Below are positions 18,682 to 31,552 of a stretch of DNA of 64,000 bases, piece after piece (within the stretch, counting starts at the first letter, position 1; the number at the start of each line of letters is the position of its first letter). Made by a program: the position numbers and the translations under genes. The stretch spans positions 124,001 through 188,000 of the forward strand of contig NZ_RYFV01000001.1 in the NCBI RefSeq assembly GCF_004104015.1, read 5' to 3'. The notes below the pieces were generated by a model. It worked only from the letters and a program-made list of their open reading frames with translations. It had not been told where the DNA came from and did not search any database. Source of the stretch: Actinomyces oricola. GTDB taxonomy: Bacteria > Actinomycetota > Actinomycetes > Actinomycetales > Actinomycetaceae.

Positions 18682-19293
18682 GTGAGTAACGAGTCCACCG
18701 CACCAAGTCCCCGTAGGGTCCTCGTCGCAGAGGACGAGACCCTCATCCGTCTCGACATCGTCGAGACCCTGGTAGACGCAGGATACAGGGTCGTCGCCGA
18801 GGCCGCCAATGGTGAGGAGGCCGTCCGCCTGGCCGCGGAGCACGAGCCCGACCTGTGCGTTATGGATATTAAGATGCCGGTCATGGACGGCATTACTGCC
18901 GCCGAGCGGATCATTGACCAACACGATTGTGCTGTGGTCATGCTCACCGCTTTCTCCCAGACCGACCTGGTCGAGCGGGCCGGGGCGGCCGGAGCCATGG
19001 CCTACGTGGTCAAGCCCTTCACTCCCGCCGATCTCATCCCCGCACTTGAGATCGCCATGTCCCGGCACGAGGAGATCCAGTCCTTAGAGGCCGAGATCAG
19101 TGACCTCACCGAGCGCTTTGAAACTCGCAAGCGCGTGGACCGGGCCAAGGGCCTGCTCATGGAGAAGATGGGCCTATCGGAGCCGGACGCTTTCCGCTGG
19201 CTCCAAAAGACCTCCATGAACCGCCGCCTGACCATGCGGGAGGTCGCCGACGCCGTCATTGAGCAGGTCGGCGATTCCCCCAAGCGATCCTGA
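18682..19293 (+). CDS. pdtaR: ANTAR-domain response regulator PdtaR
   Basis: Predicted 203 residues. A receiver domain (about 12-125) has acidic residues Glu17/Asp18, phosphoacceptor Asp62 in VMDIKMP and the conserved Lys of VVKPF. A coiled linker leads to an ANTAR RNA-binding domain (about 135-195, RAKGLLMEKMGLSEPDAFRWLQKTS). Such proteins act after transcription starts, preventing termination at paired RNA hairpins once phosphorylated by a histidine kinase such as PdtaS. No kinase is adjacent. The GTG start follows TAGGAT by six bases. Position beside polA matches mycobacteria. Confidence 0.9.
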   Translation: MSNESTAPSPRRVLVAEDETLIRLDIVETLVDAGYRVVAEAANGEEAVRLAAEHEPDLCVMDIKMPVMDGITAAERIIDQHDCAVVMLTAFSQTDLVERAGAAGAMAYVVKPFTPADLIPALEIAMSRHEEIQSLEAEISDLTERFETRKRVDRAKGLLMEKMGLSEPDAFRWLQKTSMNRRLTMREVADAVIEQVGDSPKRS

Positions 19294-23016: not shown

Positions 23017-24465
23017 ATGACCACCACCACGCCCACCCCCGCCCCGGTCGCCGTCAACGACATCGGTTCGACCGAGGAGATCCTCGCCGCCGTCGACGAG
23101 ACCATCAAGTACTTCGACGACGGTGACATCGTCGAGGGCACTGTTGTCAAGGTCGACCGTGATGAGGTCCTCCTGGACATCGGCTACAAGACCGAGGGCG
23201 TTATCCTCGCTCGCGAGCTGTCCATTAAGCATGACGTCGACCCCGATGAGATCGTCTCGGTCGGCGATGAGATCGAGGCCCTGGTTCTCCAGAAGGAGGA
23301 CAAGGAGGGCCGTTTGCTGCTGAGCAAGAAGCGTGCCCAGTACGAGCGCGCCTGGGGCACCATCGAGCGCGTTAAGGAAGAGGACGGCGTCGTCACCGGC
23401 ACCGTCATTGAGGTCGTCAAGGGTGGTCTCATCCTCGACATCGGCCTGCGCGGGTTCCTCCCCGCCTCCCTGGTCGAAATGCGCCGTGTGCGCGACCTCC
23501 AGCCCTATGTGGGCCGCGAGCTCGAGGCCAAGATCATCGAGCTGGACAAGAACCGCAATAACGTGGTTCTCTCCCGCCGGGCCTGGTTGGAGCAGACCCA
23601 GTCCGAGGTCCGCACCAACTTCCTCCAGACCCTCCAGAAGGGCCAGGTACGTCCCGGTGTGGTCTCCTCCATTGTCAACTTCGGCGCCTTCGTGGACCTG
23701 GGCGGCGTGGACGGCCTGGTGCATGTCTCCGAGCTGTCCTGGAAGCACATCGACCACCCCTCCGAGGTCGTCGAAGTGGGCCAGGAAGTCACCGTTGAGG
23801 TCTTGGATGTTGACTTCGACCGTGAACGCGTCTCCTTGTCGCTGAAGGCCACCCAGGAGGACCCGTGGCAGGCCTTCGCCCGCACCCACGCCATTGGTCA
23901 GGTGGTGCCCGGTAAGGTCACCAAGCTCGTCCCCTTCGGCGCCTTCGTCCGCGTTGAGGACGGCATTGAGGGCCTGGTACACATCTCCGAGCTGGCTCAG
24001 CGTCATGTTGAGGTGCCTGAGCAGGTCGCCAAGGTCGGTGACGAGGTCTTCGTCAAGGTTATTGACATTGATTTGGAGCGCCGCCGTATCTCCTTGTCCC
24101 TCAAGCAGGCCAATGAGGGCGTGGATCCCGCTTCGGAGGACTTCGATCCCTCCCTGTACGGCATGGCCGCCGAGTACGACGAGAACGGCAACTACAAGTA
24201 CCCCGAGGGCTTCGACCCGGAGACCAACGAGTGGCTTGAAGGCTACGACGCCCAGCGCGAGGCCTGGGAGGCCGAGTACGCGGCGGCTCACGCCCGCTGG
24301 GAGGCCCACAAGGCCCAGGTGGCCAGGGCCATGGAGAATGACACTGAGCCCGACACCGCCCCAGCCGGCTCCACCTCCTACTCCTCGGCCCCTTCGGAGG
24401 CCTCGGGCACCCTCGCCTCTGACGAGGCGCTGGCAGCGCTGCGCGAGAAGCTGACCGGCAACTGA
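23017..24465 (+). CDS. rpsA: 30S ribosomal protein S1
   Basis: Predicted 482 residues with four S1 RNA-binding domains, starting near residues 34, 120, 205 and 290 (GDIVEGTVVKVDRDEVLLDIG, GVVTGTVIEVVKGGLILDIG, GVVSSIVNFGAFVDLGG, GKVTKLVPFGAFVRVEDG). It helps mRNA bind the ribosome; with many leaderless transcripts its reach here may be narrower. Actinobacteria have four domains rather than the six of E. coli, which fits. The C-terminal tail (about 370-482) is acidic and Ala/Ser-rich. A strong hairpin follows. Confidence 0.96.
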   Translation: MTTTTPTPAPVAVNDIGSTEEILAAVDETIKYFDDGDIVEGTVVKVDRDEVLLDIGYKTEGVILARELSIKHDVDPDEIVSVGDEIEALVLQKEDKEGRLLLSKKRAQYERAWGTIERVKEEDGVVTGTVIEVVKGGLILDIGLRGFLPASLVEMRRVRDLQPYVGRELEAKIIELDKNRNNVVLSRRAWLEQTQSEVRTNFLQTLQKGQVRPGVVSSIVNFGAFVDLGGVDGLVHVSELSWKHIDHPSEVVEVGQEVTVEVLDVDFDRERVSLSLKATQEDPWQAFARTHAIGQVVPGKVTKLVPFGAFVRVEDGIEGLVHISELAQRHVEVPEQVAKVGDEVFVKVIDIDLERRRISLSLKQANEGVDPASEDFDPSLYGMAAEYDENGNYKYPEGFDPETNEWLEGYDAQREAWEAEYAAAHARWEAHKAQVARAMENDTEPDTAPAGSTSYSSAPSEASGTLASDEALAALREKLTGN

Positions 24466-24701: not shown

Positions 24702-26453
24702 ATGACGAGCTGGGCCGAGGTGTCCACGCTGCTGACGGATATGGGTGACCCCCGCAGCCCGGCGCGCACGGGAAACCTGTACACCGCGTTGGTGGACCAG
24801 CCGCCCCAGGAGGACCTGCCCGGCGACATGACGGCCAGCATTATCCACAGCCTCACCCAGATCGACCGGCCCTGGCTGGCGACTCTGGGGGAGGACCCCG
24901 ACCGCAGCCGAGCCGACATTGATCGTGCTGTGGCGGCCTGCGAAAAGCTCCGTACTGACAACGGGCACTCCGCCCTGCCGCTGCGCTACGCCCGCGTCGA
25001 GTTATGCCCTACCCTCGGGCAGCGGGCCGACGCCATAGAGCAGCTGCGTGTGGCACGCCTGTTCTCCTTCGGGGAGGTCGATGCCAGCGCCACCTTGGCG
25101 GCCGCCAAAATGCACGACGACTTCTCCGGTGTCATCCGCACCACGACGGCAGTAGTCACCCGCCCCGACGCCGACCCCGCAGGCACCGCCCGCAACCTGG
25201 CCGCCAGCCTCCTGCCCTACCTGGCCCAGAACCGCAAGGTCGAGGCCGAGGACGCCATGATGTCCCTCGGTCTGATAGAAATCCCCGATTTCATGCGCAT
25301 CCGGGTCCTGGGCGACCAGATGGAGTACCTGGGTCTGTCCGGGCAGTGGGAGCGGGCCTTCGCCATTCTGCGCCACACCGACCTGACCGACGCCTCATCC
25401 TCCAGCGCCTGGTCGCTAATGAATGGTGCCGCGGGGACCGCCGTCGTTCTCAGAGAGTCGGTGCGGGCCGGGTACGGCGCCAACGCCCTGGGGTCGACCA
25501 TCTCCTGGACCACGCCCTGGGGGCCGGCCCTGCAAGTCACTGGTTGGGACACTGTCGCCCACGCCTATGACGCCGTCACCGCCTTCGCCCGCACCCTGGC
25601 CGTCCGTTTCGACCGGCGCAACGACAACAATGGCGTGTCCCTGCGCATTGAGACCCGCATGGCCTCCGAGATCGCGAGCCTGGCCACCCGCTCCTACGGC
25701 ACTGTCACCGGAGGCGCCGCAATCCCCTCCGCTCGCCTGCTGAACCGGGGGGCCCTGCTGGAGGAGGTCAATGACCTGTTGGTCCTGGCACGCGGCTACG
25801 GCCTGGACTCGGTGCGGGAGCGGGCCATCTCCACTGCCGAGACGGTCAGCCAGTCGCTGGCCGAGCTCACCGACGACTCCCAGCTCGAGATAATCGTGGA
25901 CCTGCGCATCGCCTTCTCCCGATTGCTCACGGCCCTGGGCGCCCACGAGCGCGCCGAAGCCGAGGCCCTGGACACCACCGAGTTGTGCCTGTCCCAGGGG
26001 TGGTTGGAGTTGGGCTGCGCCTCTATGGTCATTGCCGCCCAGAGCGCCGCCAGCCGGGGCGACCATGCCGGCGCCACTGTCCACTGGCAGCGCATCCATG
26101 AGCTCCTCACCGACTGGGGAACCATCCGCATGGGGGAGCGCCTGGGGGCTGTCATTAATGCCATCGGCGACCCCTGCGGCTCGGTGCGGCTCCTGACCGA
26201 CCTGGCCGAGATCACCGCCGAGGGCGTTGAAACAACACCCGCCCGCGCCTCCGCTGCGCGGGAGGTGTGCAGGCGGGCGCGCGCCGAGCTCGAGCGGTGC
26301 CGGTCGGTTCCCGACGATGTCTCCCAACGACTTGCCGCTGTTGAGCAAACTATTGCCCCCTACGGACGAGGTCGATCCGGCCGGCGCCGCGCCGGCGGCG
26401 AAAGGACGGCGGCAACGCCTGACAGGGCGAGCCGGCCGGAGAAGCGCGAGTGA
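24702..26453 (+). CDS. Uncharacterised helical-repeat protein
   Basis: Predicted 583 residues. I do not recognise the family. The sequence has no transmembrane segment or signal peptide and is rich in Ala, Leu, Arg and Glu. Paired-helix patterns (for example ADAIEQLRVARLFSFGEVDASATLAA and GQWERAFAILRH) suggest TPR-like or similar alpha-solenoid repeats. The last 40 residues are basic (RGRSGRRRAGGERT) and probably disordered. GGGAGGA lies just before the ATG at 24702. It stands between rpsA and the coaE fusion gene, after a strong terminator, so it has its own promoter, not identified. Confidence 0.7.
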   Translation: MTSWAEVSTLLTDMGDPRSPARTGNLYTALVDQPPQEDLPGDMTASIIHSLTQIDRPWLATLGEDPDRSRADIDRAVAACEKLRTDNGHSALPLRYARVELCPTLGQRADAIEQLRVARLFSFGEVDASATLAAAKMHDDFSGVIRTTTAVVTRPDADPAGTARNLAASLLPYLAQNRKVEAEDAMMSLGLIEIPDFMRIRVLGDQMEYLGLSGQWERAFAILRHTDLTDASSSSAWSLMNGAAGTAVVLRESVRAGYGANALGSTISWTTPWGPALQVTGWDTVAHAYDAVTAFARTLAVRFDRRNDNNGVSLRIETRMASEIASLATRSYGTVTGGAAIPSARLLNRGALLEEVNDLLVLARGYGLDSVRERAISTAETVSQSLAELTDDSQLEIIVDLRIAFSRLLTALGAHERAEAEALDTTELCLSQGWLELGCASMVIAAQSAASRGDHAGATVHWQRIHELLTDWGTIRMGERLGAVINAIGDPCGSVRLLTDLAEITAEGVETTPARASAAREVCRRARAELERCRSVPDDVSQRLAAVEQTIAPYGRGRSGRRRAGGERTAATPDRASRPEKRE

Positions 26454-26552: not shown

Positions 26553-27875
26553 ATGATGCAGACGCAGGACGCCCTCGGCTCTCAGGGCCCCGCCCCGACG
26601 GCCTCAAAGGCGGTCAATGCGCCAGTGCGGGTCCATGTCACCGGTTTCGAGCCTGTTGACGCCGCCGCGCCCAACGCTTCGCTGGACGTCGTGCGGCTTC
26701 TGCCCGAGAGCATTGAGTTGGCGGGGGGGCGGGCCATGGTGACCCGAGAGCTCCTGCCAACGGCCTTCGCGGGAGCGGCGGCGGCCAGCCGCAGCGCCAT
26801 TGAGTACCTGCGCCCCGACGTCGTCGTGCATGTCGGCCTCCGGGCGGGGGGAGGGGCGGTGACGTTGGAGACCACCGCCCACAATGAGGCGACGGCGCAC
26901 CACCCCGACACCACCGGGTTTCAGCCCAACGGTGAGGCGCTCGTCCCCGGCGGCCCGCCCCAGCGCCGGGTCGCATGGCCGGTAGCGGCGCTAGTGGGCC
27001 GGCTCGGCGCAGCGGGCCTGCCGGTGGCCCGTTCGGACGACGCCGGAAGGCACATCTGCAATGCCGCGCTCTATGCGGCGCTCGACGCCGCCGCGGGCGT
27101 GCCGGAGGCGAACCGGCCCGTCGTCGGCCTCGTGCGCGTGCCGGCCAGTGGGTCCGTGTCCCAGTCGGAGGCGGTGCGGGTGCTGCGCGCGCTCGTGATC
27201 GAACTCGCCGACCTGGTTCGCCGTCGTCGCGCCGCGGCCGCGGGCATTGGCAGGCTTCGGGTACCACGCGGTGACCGAGCACTGCGCGTCGGACTCACCG
27301 GCGGCATTGGCTCGGGCAAGTCGACGGTGGCGCACCTGCTCGCGGTGCGCGGGGCGCACGTCGTGGATGCGGACGTTATCGCCCGTGAGGTGGTCGAGCC
27401 CGGCCAACCCGGGCTCACCGAGATCGTCGCCGTGTTCGGGACCGCGATCCTGGCCGCCGACGGCGCCCTGGACCGCAGGGCGCTGGCCGAACGCGTCTTC
27501 CATGACCCGGCGGCTCGCAGCGTCCTGGAGGCAATACTGCTGCCGCGTATCGCCCAGACGGCGGCCTGGCGCATGGAGGCGGCGAGGGCGGGGGGTGTGG
27601 CCGTCTACGATGTTCCTCTCCTCGTCGAGGGGGGGATGGAGGATCTTTTCGATTGCGTCCTGGTGGTTGAAGCGCCCCGCGCCATGAGGCTGGCGCGGCT
27701 GCGGGAACGGGGCCTGTCGCGGAATGAGGCGGAGGGCCGTATGGCCGGCCAGGCCAGTGACCAGGAGCGCCGTCGAGCAGCCGATATTCTGCTCCCCAAC
27801 AATGGCAGCCGGCAGGACCTCGCCGGCCGGGTCGACTGGCTGTGGGAGCACCGGCTCGCCGCCGGCCCGACATGA
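26553..27875 (+). CDS. coaE: Fusion of pyroglutamyl-peptidase-like domain and dephospho-CoA kinase
   Basis: Predicted 440 residues in one uninterrupted frame. The N-terminal part (about 25-215) resembles pyrrolidone-carboxyl peptidase (C15): VHVTGFEPVDAAAPNASLDV at its start, the catalytic Glu106 in LETTAHN and Cys169 in SDDAGRHICN. The third triad member, His, is replaced by Arg195 in GLVRVP, so peptidase activity is doubtful. The C-terminal part is CoaE, which phosphorylates dephospho-CoA in the last step of CoA synthesis: P-loop GLTGGIGSGKST (247-258), DADVIAREVV and YDVPLLVE. The CoaE half stands in the usual rpsA-coaE-uvrB order. The start follows TAGCCT by six bases. Confidence 0.85.
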   Translation: MMQTQDALGSQGPAPTASKAVNAPVRVHVTGFEPVDAAAPNASLDVVRLLPESIELAGGRAMVTRELLPTAFAGAAAASRSAIEYLRPDVVVHVGLRAGGGAVTLETTAHNEATAHHPDTTGFQPNGEALVPGGPPQRRVAWPVAALVGRLGAAGLPVARSDDAGRHICNAALYAALDAAAGVPEANRPVVGLVRVPASGSVSQSEAVRVLRALVIELADLVRRRRAAAAGIGRLRVPRGDRALRVGLTGGIGSGKSTVAHLLAVRGAHVVDADVIAREVVEPGQPGLTEIVAVFGTAILAADGALDRRALAERVFHDPAARSVLEAILLPRIAQTAAWRMEAARAGGVAVYDVPLLVEGGMEDLFDCVLVVEAPRAMRLARLRERGLSRNEAEGRMAGQASDQERRRAADILLPNNGSRQDLAGRVDWLWEHRLAAGPT

Positions 27876-27904: not shown

Positions 27905-28600
27905 CTACAGGTCGCTGCCTCCCCATTCAACTGCGGTGAAGCCGGTACGGGCGGGTGCGGGGGTCAGGACCTGCTCGGGCACAGGAGCGGCCGGGGCGTC
28001 AGAGACAAGGATGTAGACGCGGATGAAGGTGGTCGGGGTGATCTCCTCACCGGCGGAGGCGAAGCGGTAGCGAGCAGTATTGGTGTACTGGTCGCCTAGG
28101 AAGGTCACCAGGGCCTCGCCCCGCTCGGCGATCCGCGGCCCCCAGAAGGTGATGCACTCGGCGGCCTCGCGGTCGTTGAGACCCAGAACGGCGAGCTTGT
28201 CCTCCAGGAAACCGGTGGCGTCGCCGGCCTTAACAACAAAGCCGGTGTCCTGCGCAAAGGCGGTGCTGCTCTCACCCTCCCAGAACAGTGAGGGGTAGTG
28301 GCGGCCACTGGCGTCGGTCAAGTCCCCATCTGGATGGGCCGTCACCGCCCATGACACGGTGCCGTCGGGCATCTGCTCGGGCTGCGGATAGGTGTAGGTG
28401 AGCCGGCCGTCATAGTCGAGTTCCACGGTGACATCGGTCATCGTCTCGGGATACAGGTACAGCACCGGCTTGTACGACTTCTCCGGTTCTCTTCTCGTGC
28501 CGCAGGCGGAGGCGGCCAGGAGAACCGTGGCCTGTCCGATCAGGGCGAGTGCACCGCGCCTGCTTGTCATATGGGTTGGAATCTTCCCCAGGGTTGGCAT
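27905..28600 (-). CDS. Tat-exported lipoprotein of the KPVLYLYP family, unknown function
   Basis: Predicted 231 residues. A twin-arginine signal (MTSRRGALALIGQA) is followed by the lipobox LLAASAC, so the mature protein is probably lipid-anchored on the outside after Tat export. The mature N-terminus has KPVLYLYPETMTDVTVELD, then LTYTYPQPE and HYPSLFWEG, a pattern I recall from poorly described bacterial proteins with a KPVIYLYP motif; no enzymatic motif is clear. Two starts are possible, 28600 (GAGAGG upstream) and 28570. The two start regions are similar to each other, perhaps a small duplication. It is convergent with the coaE fusion gene. Confidence 0.7.
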   Translation of the reverse strand: MPTLGKIPTHMTSRRGALALIGQATVLLAASACGTRREPEKSYKPVLYLYPETMTDVTVELDYDGRLTYTYPQPEQMPDGTVSWAVTAHPDGDLTDASGRHYPSLFWEGESSTAFAQDTGFVVKAGDATGFLEDKLAVLGLNDREAAECITFWGPRIAERGEALVTFLGDQYTNTARYRFASAGEEITPTTFIRVYILVSDAPAAPVPEQVLTPAPARTGFTAVEWGGSDL

Positions 28601-29455: not shown

Positions 29456-31552
29456 ATGCGTCCTGTTACCGAGCTCCAGCGTGCAGCCAAGCCCTTCGAG
29501 GTCGTCAGCCCTTACCGGCCCAGCGGCGATCAGCCCACCGCCATTGCCGAGCTCACCAAGCGGCTGAGCGCCGGGGAGAAGGACATTGTCCTCTTGGGGG
29601 CGACCGGGACCGGCAAGTCCGCCACCGCCGCCTGGCTGGTCGAGCAGGTGCAGCGCCCCACCCTCATCCTGGAGCCGAACAAGACGCTGGCCGCGCAGAT
29701 GGCCGCAGAGTTTCGCGAGCTGCTGCCGGGCAACGCGGTGGAGTACTTCGTCTCCTACTACGACTACTACCAGCCCGAGGCCTATGTCCCCCAGACGGAC
29801 ACCTTTATTGAGAAGGATTCCTCCATCAATGATGAGGTCGAGCGCCTGCGCCACAGCGCCACCAACTCGCTGCTGACTCGCCGAGACGTGGTGGTGGTCT
29901 CCTCGGTGTCCTGCATCTACGGCCTGGGCACGCCCCAGGAGTACGTGGACCGCATGACCCCTTTGCAGGTGGGCCAGCGCATTGACCGCGACGACCTCCT
30001 GCGCCGGTTCGTGTCCATGCAGTACACCCGCAATGACATCGACTTCACCCGCGGCACTTTTCGCGTGCGCGGCGACACCGTCGAGATCATCCCCATGTAC
30101 GAGGAGCTCGCCATCCGCATTGAGTTCTTCGGGGACGAGATCGAGGCCCTGTCCACCCTTCACCCGGTGACCGGGGAGGCCATTGACGCCGCCGACCAGG
30201 TGTTCGTCTTCCCCGCCTCCCACTATGTGGCCGGCCCCGAGCGCATGGAGCGCGCCATAAACGGCATTGAGGACGAGTTGGCCGCGCGCCTGGCCGAGCT
30301 TGAGCGCGCCGGCAAGCTCCTGGAGGCGCAACGCCTGCGCATGCGCACCACCTACGACCTGGAGATGATGCGCCAAATCGGCTCGTGCTCTGGCATTGAG
30401 AACTACTCCCTGCACATTGACGGCCGCTCTCCGGGCACGCCCCCCAACACGCTCCTGGACTATTTCCCCGAGGACTTCCTCCTGGTCATTGACGAGTCCC
30501 ATGTGACGGTCCCGCAGATCGGCGCCATGCACGAGGGGGACGCCTCGCGCAAGCGGACCCTGGTCGATCACGGTTTCCGCCTGCCCTCCGCCTTGGACAA
30601 CCGGCCCCTGACATTCACCGAGTTCGAGGACCGCATTGGGCAGACCATCTACCTGTCCGCCACGCCCGGGGACTACGAGATGGGCCTGTCCGACGGCGTC
30701 GTCGAGCAGATCATCCGCCCCACCGGCCTGGTCGACCCCAAGGTGGTGGTCAAGCCCACCCGGGGGCAGATCGACGACCTTCTGGAGGAGGTGCGCACCC
30801 GCGTGGAGGCCGATGAGCGCATCTTGGTGACCACCTTGACCAAGCGCATGGCCGAGGACCTGACCACCTATTTGGCGGACCGGGGGGTGCGCGTGGAGTA
30901 CCTGCACTCCGATGTGGACACTCTGCGCCGCGTCGAGCTCCTGCGCGAGCTGCGCCTGGGCCAGTTCGATGTGCTCGTGGGCATTAACCTGCTGCGCGAG
31001 GGCCTGGACCTGCCCGAGGTGTCCCTGGTGTCCATCCTGGACGCGGACAAGGAGGGGTTCCTGCGCTCCACCCGCTCCCTGATCCAGACCATTGGCCGCG
31101 CCGCCCGCAATGTGTCGGGCGAGGTTCACATGTATGCGGACACGGTCACCGCCGCCATGGCTGAGGCCATTGAAGAGACTGAGCGGCGGCGCACCAAGCA
31201 GATCGCCTACAACGAAGCCAATGGCATCGACCCGCAGCCGCTGCGCAAGAAGATCGCCGATGTCACCGACATGCTCGCCCGTGAGGACGTCGACACCGCC
31301 GAGCTGCTGGCCGGCGGCTACCGCGGACACGAGGAGAGGCGTGTGCGCGCCGGCCGCAAGAAGGCGGCCGAGGCGACCGTGCGCGAGAGGCTTGCCGGCG
31401 CGGCCCAGGGGGACTTGGTCGAGCTCATCTCCGAACTCACCGAGCAAATGCATGCCGCCGCCGAGGACCTCCACTTCGAGCTCGCCGCCCGCCTGCGCGA
31501 CGAGATCCAGGATCTGAAGAAGGAACTGCGCGCCATGCGCGCCGCCGGCTGA
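29456..31552 (+). CDS. uvrB: Excinuclease ABC subunit B
   Basis: Predicted 698 residues. This helicase-like protein is loaded by UvrA at DNA damage and positions UvrC for incision. Walker A GATGTGKS (about 48-55), the damage-probing beta-hairpin [21 protein letters not shown], the DESH helicase motif VIDESH, motif [18 protein letters not shown] and motif [11 protein letters not shown] are present. The C-terminal UVR domain (about 655-695) binds UvrC. The length is normal. The start follows TAGCCT by six bases. Unlike uvrA, no SOS box is visible upstream. Confidence 0.97.

Follow-up and report, generated by a model that had tools for sequence, protein, structure and literature searches.

A dephospho-CoA kinase gene of Actinomyces oricola with a probably inactive N-terminal pyroglutamyl-peptidase-like domain

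The fused gene

The window analysed here is a stretch of 64,000 nucleotides from Actinomyces oricola, in which an uninterrupted frame, opening with an ATG and closed by its stop codon, joins a C15 (pyroglutamyl-peptidase-like) domain through a linker to a dephospho-CoA kinase, CoaE (Table 1). Its conserved neighbours in the locus are presumably rpsA upstream and uvrB downstream. A joined frame of this kind, with a complete CoaE, had been claimed in the preliminary description and was borne out by the domain search. Peptidase_C15 (PF01470) was matched at residues 26-182 with 90.4 bits against a cut-off of 22.7 (profile positions 2-155 of 204), followed by CoaE (PF01121) at residues 246-421 with 186.9 bits against a cut-off of 27 (profile positions 3-179 of 180), and TIGR00152 scored 148.3 bits against 65.55.

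Table 1. Features of the fused gene and its conserved neighbours (window coordinates)
Feature	Coordinates	Strand	Remarks
rpsA (30S ribosomal protein S1; presumed)	23017..24465	+	upstream neighbour conserved in the locus
C15-like domain + linker + dephospho-CoA kinase, one gene	26553..27875	+	440 aa
C15 (pyroglutamyl-peptidase-like) domain	26628..27197	+	residues 26-215; profile, sequence and fold matches
C15 C-terminal helix (model)	27162..27239	+	residues 204-229; corresponding segment retained in the stub clade
Linker	27240..27281	+	residues 230-243; alignment of 20 fused rows
CoaE domain	27282..27824	+	residues 244-424; catalytic residues present; departures 0/62 invariant columns
uvrB (presumed)	29456..31552	+	downstream neighbour conserved in the locus

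CoaE is the enzyme that finishes coenzyme A, and it is essential. The window genome, a 2.93-Mb draft of 78 contigs with a completeness score of 100%, holds a single CoaE match and a single C15 match, both at this locus, so the window CoaE is expected to be active as a kinase on dephospho-CoA. In M. tuberculosis CoaE, mutagenesis indicated that Lys14, Asp30/Asp32, Leu114 and Arg140 matter (PMC3019153); with a constant offset of 242 these become K256, D272, D274, L356 and R382 of the window protein, and all five are present.

The catalytic positions of C15 peptidases we take to be Glu106, Cys169 and position 195, which is His in intact relatives. Read directly from the codons, the window protein has Glu at 106, Cys at 169 and Arg (CGC) at 195, as had been noticed earlier, and the domain is probably inactive on this evidence, although its catalytic mechanism may instead have changed.

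Between residues 215 and 245 the frame of the window gene is free of stop codons. From codon 216 to codon 258 it also lacks ATG, GTG and TTG, and the closest GTG lies 33 codons before the LTGG motif of CoaE, so that a conventional CoaE start could stand only 33 or more codons before that motif; independent translation of the kinase from an internal start was rejected for the window gene on this ground. Of 15 fused rows listed, 10 have a GTG two codons before LTGG, and in these an internal CoaE start may be used. The linker carries R234 and R242, both invariant across the 20 aligned fused rows.

Predicted structure and known relatives

An AlphaFold2 model of the window protein, built from the alignment of the 20 fused proteins, reached a mean pLDDT of 90 and a pTM of 0.89. 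In Foldseek its C15 half matched the pyroglutamyl peptidase 3ro0_C (TM 0.86 by target length, rmsd 2.2) together with many other C15 chains, and the CoaE half matched CoaE 9dug (TM 0.86), so the structural likeness to C15 peptidases on which the earlier reading depended is present in the model. Compared with the solved members of peptidase family C15 (PF01470; 3ro0, 1iu8), the window domain shares the fold over its whole length and the Glu and Cys positions, but it has Arg in place of His and is fused to CoaE. Against the NCBIfam equivalog for pyroglutamyl peptidase I, TIGR00504, it scores 98.8 bits, below the cut-off of 201.75.

The kinase half is a full-length domain like ordinary CoaE (PF01121, TIGR00152), which starts near the P-loop, whereas here an N-terminal C15 domain comes first. 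Fusion of CoaE to a second domain of unclear function has a mycobacterial parallel, in which a C-terminal UPF0157 (GrpB) domain was reported to aid folding (PMC2765170); the window partner, however, is unrelated to GrpB and is N-terminal rather than C-terminal. Unlike the CoaE-GrpB fusion (PRK03333), the window protein stops at residue 440 after CoaE without a GrpB domain. NF002879 was matched with 239.9 bits against a cut-off of 215, but over profile positions 2-195 of 395, the CoaE half. The N-terminal C15 partner had been called unfamiliar, and no paper on a C15-CoaE fusion stood among the matches listed in a search of open-access literature by title or start of abstract; a search for C15 pocket residues likewise gave nothing usable among the matches listed.

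Distribution and origin of the fusion

The survey of CoaE architectures found the fusion in at least 20 of 213 genomes of the family, a lower bound since weakly matching, very eroded copies may be missed. It occurs in 16 of the 49 genomes of the window's genus (catalytic triad intact in 10, broken in 6) and in 4 of the 35 of a second genus, g27 (intact in 3, broken in 1). The rest of the window's genus comprises four genomes with a two-segment stub before CoaE, one (G035) in which C15 is a separate gene adjoining coaE, one (G048) with its C15 gene elsewhere in the genome, and 27 of the 49 whose CoaE has no recognisable C15 part. Among the best 80 of 147 relatives, CoaE directly follows C15 in ten (Actinomyces gerencseriae, A. 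israelii, A. sp. oral taxon 448, A. haliotis, A. urogenitalis, A. dentalis, A. polynesiensis, A. provencensis and two MAGs); in the other 70, CoaE lies near C15 only in Arcanobacterium haemolyticum (L195), as a separate gene about 0.9 kb off. A plasmid search matched 48 records, none over 80% of the query, and the five listed all matched the CoaE half.

The gene order polA-rpsA-C15-coaE-uvrB was found in the family, and C15 adjoins coaE in at least 19 of its unfused genomes. The two genes are also near each other in 12 of 12 sampled genomes of family f13 and in 11 of 15 of family f8, where C15 lies downstream of coaE in 9 of these 11. In one of the other four f8 genomes (G237, locus L165), C15 adjoins uvrB, with no CoaE match within 8.6 kb. 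No CoaE match was seen near C15 within flanks of up to 4 kb in 27 sampled genomes from eight other families of the order; two of these had flanks of only 1.5 kb, one (G330) gave no match to any query, and in another (G441) rpsA is near C15 and the examined stretch ends at rpsA. None was seen near 17 clear C15 matches outside the order within flanks of up to 1.5 kb.

Of 33 known upstream-type loci 27 were examined, and 16 of these have a possible coaE start -7 to +10 nt away from where the C15 stop codon ends. Since start codons are common, this nearness shows that coupled translation of the two genes is possible, not that it occurs. Few changes would be needed for such neighbours to fuse.

In a quick C15 tree, which omits three eroded fused rows, 17 fused rows fall on one side of a branch with support of 92. 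A species tree was built from polA, rpsA and uvrB of 65 genomes, nine of the 74 prepared having been dropped for too little sequence. In it the two genera with the fusion are separated by unfused ones, and the fusion in the second genus may be the same event as that in Actinomyces or a separate one. The window genome is sister to 16 genomes without a C15 domain with support of 0.952; several deep nodes inside the genus are weakly supported.

Two loci of the genus are noted separately. The genome G035, nested among fused genomes, has separate C15 and coaE frames (L062, 6631-8108), and the coaE frame extends back into the end of C15 in another frame; the fusion may have been re-split there by a frameshift, or may never have formed. 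In G048 two different tandem coaE genes were found (L096, 6412-6972 and 7266-7829), 41% and 54% identical to the window CoaE.

Erosion of the C15 domain

The Glu/Cys/His triad is intact in 47 of 54 aligned C15 rows: in 13 of 20 fused rows, in all 19 linked separate genes and in all 15 others. The seven broken rows are thus all fused, and the residues lost differ among them. The window exchanged His for Arg, G014 and G019 lost Cys, G040 has Cys for His, and G028, G038 and G167 show heavier damage. As 13 of 20 fused and 34 of 34 unfused rows keep the triad, the missing His is a local loss and not a feature of the fusion as such.

The damage in the window is not confined to the triad. The 10 intact fused Actinomyces share 57 invariant columns in C15 and 62 in CoaE; the window differs at 12 of the former and at none of the latter (Fisher p 7e-5). 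The twelve are F35V, G37A, W44L, A46V, V70T, A100G, N120T, Y167H, V168I, T172A, F193L and H195R, of which F35V removes an aromatic residue of the conserved GFEPF motif. When the intact rows were left out singly, C15 departures were 0-6 of 57-63 columns and CoaE departures 0-4, but G039 gave 12 of 74 in CoaE. In the remaining five broken rows from the genus, departures number 22-26 of 57 columns in C15 and 1-6 of 62 in CoaE.

Selection on inactive copies and on the stub

Omega was estimated from pairwise codon models, with 5-95% ranges from 60 bootstrap resamples. For the inactive pair G014/G040, C15 omega was 0.286 (0.10-0.41; 2dlnL 26 against omega 1) and CoaE omega 0.068; these two are broken at different residues, so part of their divergence may predate inactivation. 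For G028/G038, which have their damage in common, C15 omega was 0.352 (0.20-0.56; 2dlnL 13 against omega 1) and CoaE omega 0.115.

Three intact fused pairs were usable, with C15 and CoaE omega of 0.08 and 0.14 (G155/G156), 0.23 and 0.14 (G011/G015), and 0.21 and 0.006 (G007/G034); G009/G046 and G046/G039 were saturated for C15, and G013/G027 had a dS of 4.9. The window gave C15 omega of 0.17 against G011 and 0.22 against G015, values not above the 0.23 of the intact pair G011/G015, and CoaE omega of 0.13 in both comparisons. Relaxation in the window is therefore slight by omega and clear by the invariant-column test.

The stub clade consists of four Actinomyces (L018, L019, L021, L022) in which two C15 segments are left before CoaE, together with a linker of the GRL..PRG.RALRV type. 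Over its six pairs stub omega was 0.10-0.46, the pair G010/G018 being not clearly below 1 (2dlnL 3.7), and CoaE omega was 0.04-0.15. The stub was modelled with helices at 11-26 (pLDDT 75-92 by block of ten) and 58-81 (90-93), and this two-segment form is a candidate minimal element. C15 omega below 1 in the two inactive pairs and in the stub indicates that the remnant is not drifting freely.

Proposed history and alternatives

We favour, with a probability of about 0.68, a history in which a neighbouring peptidase gene was fused to coaE and then repeatedly inactivated, trimmed or lost, so that the window protein would be a plain dephospho-CoA kinase with a dead N-terminal domain. Three families of the order have a C15-type pyroglutamyl-peptidase gene next to coaE, between rpsA and uvrB. 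On the way to most Actinomyces the two frames would have merged, placing an originally active-looking C15 domain before CoaE. The peptidase activity would then have become dispensable, and several Actinomyces lineages, that of the window among them, would have lost conserved residues, catalytic ones included, with CoaE remaining strongly constrained; in other lineages the domain would have been trimmed to two segments or lost. The window protein, presumably a working CoaE with a folded dead C15 domain, would lie midway from neighbouring genes to loss. The fusion, its gene neighbours, the triad states, the unequal erosion of the two halves and the tree position are observed; the loss of activity and the order of these events we infer from the comparisons above, and the residual domain would serve at most as an aid to CoaE folding or stability, a structural role that is possible. 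Such a history would form a graded natural series, in which an essential gene captures the gene of a neighbouring enzyme that is then eroded, a process usually reconstructed from its end points.

A more demanding proposal, which has appreciable plausibility yet falls short of an even chance, is that the dead C15 domain, finally two segments and a linker, is kept because the folding or solubility of CoaE depends on it. Most of this history is common to the favoured reading, and the one point of difference is whether CoaE requires the remnant. The proposal draws support from omega values below 1 among inactive copies, from the two segments, modelled as helices, and linker retained by the stub clade, from the invariant R234 and R242, from the want of a conventional start between codons 216 and 258 in the window gene, and from the mycobacterial UPF0157 domain (PMC2765170). 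However, the 27 of 49 genomes of the genus whose CoaE has no recognisable C15 manage without it, and the constraint could reflect avoidance of misfolding only. If CoaE does need the remnant, this would be a second case of CoaE relying on an attached foreign domain. More speculatively still, a C15 domain devoid of catalysis may have been pared to a minimal helix-linker on which CoaE depends, a second and independent counterpart of mycobacterial UPF0157, with all stages alive in one family: separate coupled genes, active-looking fusion, dead fusion, two-segment stub and full loss.

That the 13 triad-intact fusions are active bifunctional enzymes, coupling peptide trimming with CoA synthesis, is unlikely. 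Their triads, the low C15 omega of the three usable intact pairs and the C15-coaE neighbourhood kept in three families are in its favour, but the frequent loss implies that the peptidase is dispensable, and the idea does not apply to the window copy. Pyroglutamyl peptides and dephospho-CoA are not known to be connected metabolically.

The preliminary description, right about the architecture and the His-to-Arg change, went on to suggest that the dead domain may bind a small ligand and regulate CoA synthesis, and this part found no support; we regard it as decidedly improbable. It could draw on a domain that is folded in the model, keeps Glu106 and Cys169 and is joined to an essential enzyme. 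Yet the triad is intact in 13 of 20 fused rows, F35V of the GFEPF motif, W44L, N120T and F193L are among the window departures, the residues broken differ from lineage to lineage, and several related lineages have the domain eroded or lack it, whereas a conserved regulatory site should not erode or vanish in this way. A catalytic residue lost in one genome should not be read as a sign of a regulatory pseudoenzyme before relatives have been checked. Lastly, an assembly or sequencing error that joined two genes or made the His-to-Arg change, conceivable in a draft of 78 contigs, has almost no credibility left, as the same fusion occurs in 19 other genomes, and 12 scattered changes in C15 stand against none in CoaE.

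Other features of the locus

Between rpsA and the fusion the window encodes a 583-aa protein (24702-26453, +) with no Pfam match at E 0.01, copies of which, 45-65% identical, are present at the equivalent position in many of the searched Actinomyces loci. On the opposite strand, 27905-28600 (-) encodes a 231-aa orphan with no Pfam match, whose start resembles a lipoprotein signal by eye; its relatives adjoin coaE in several Actinomyces loci. Upstream of polA lies a gene for a response regulator with an ANTAR domain (18682-19293, +).
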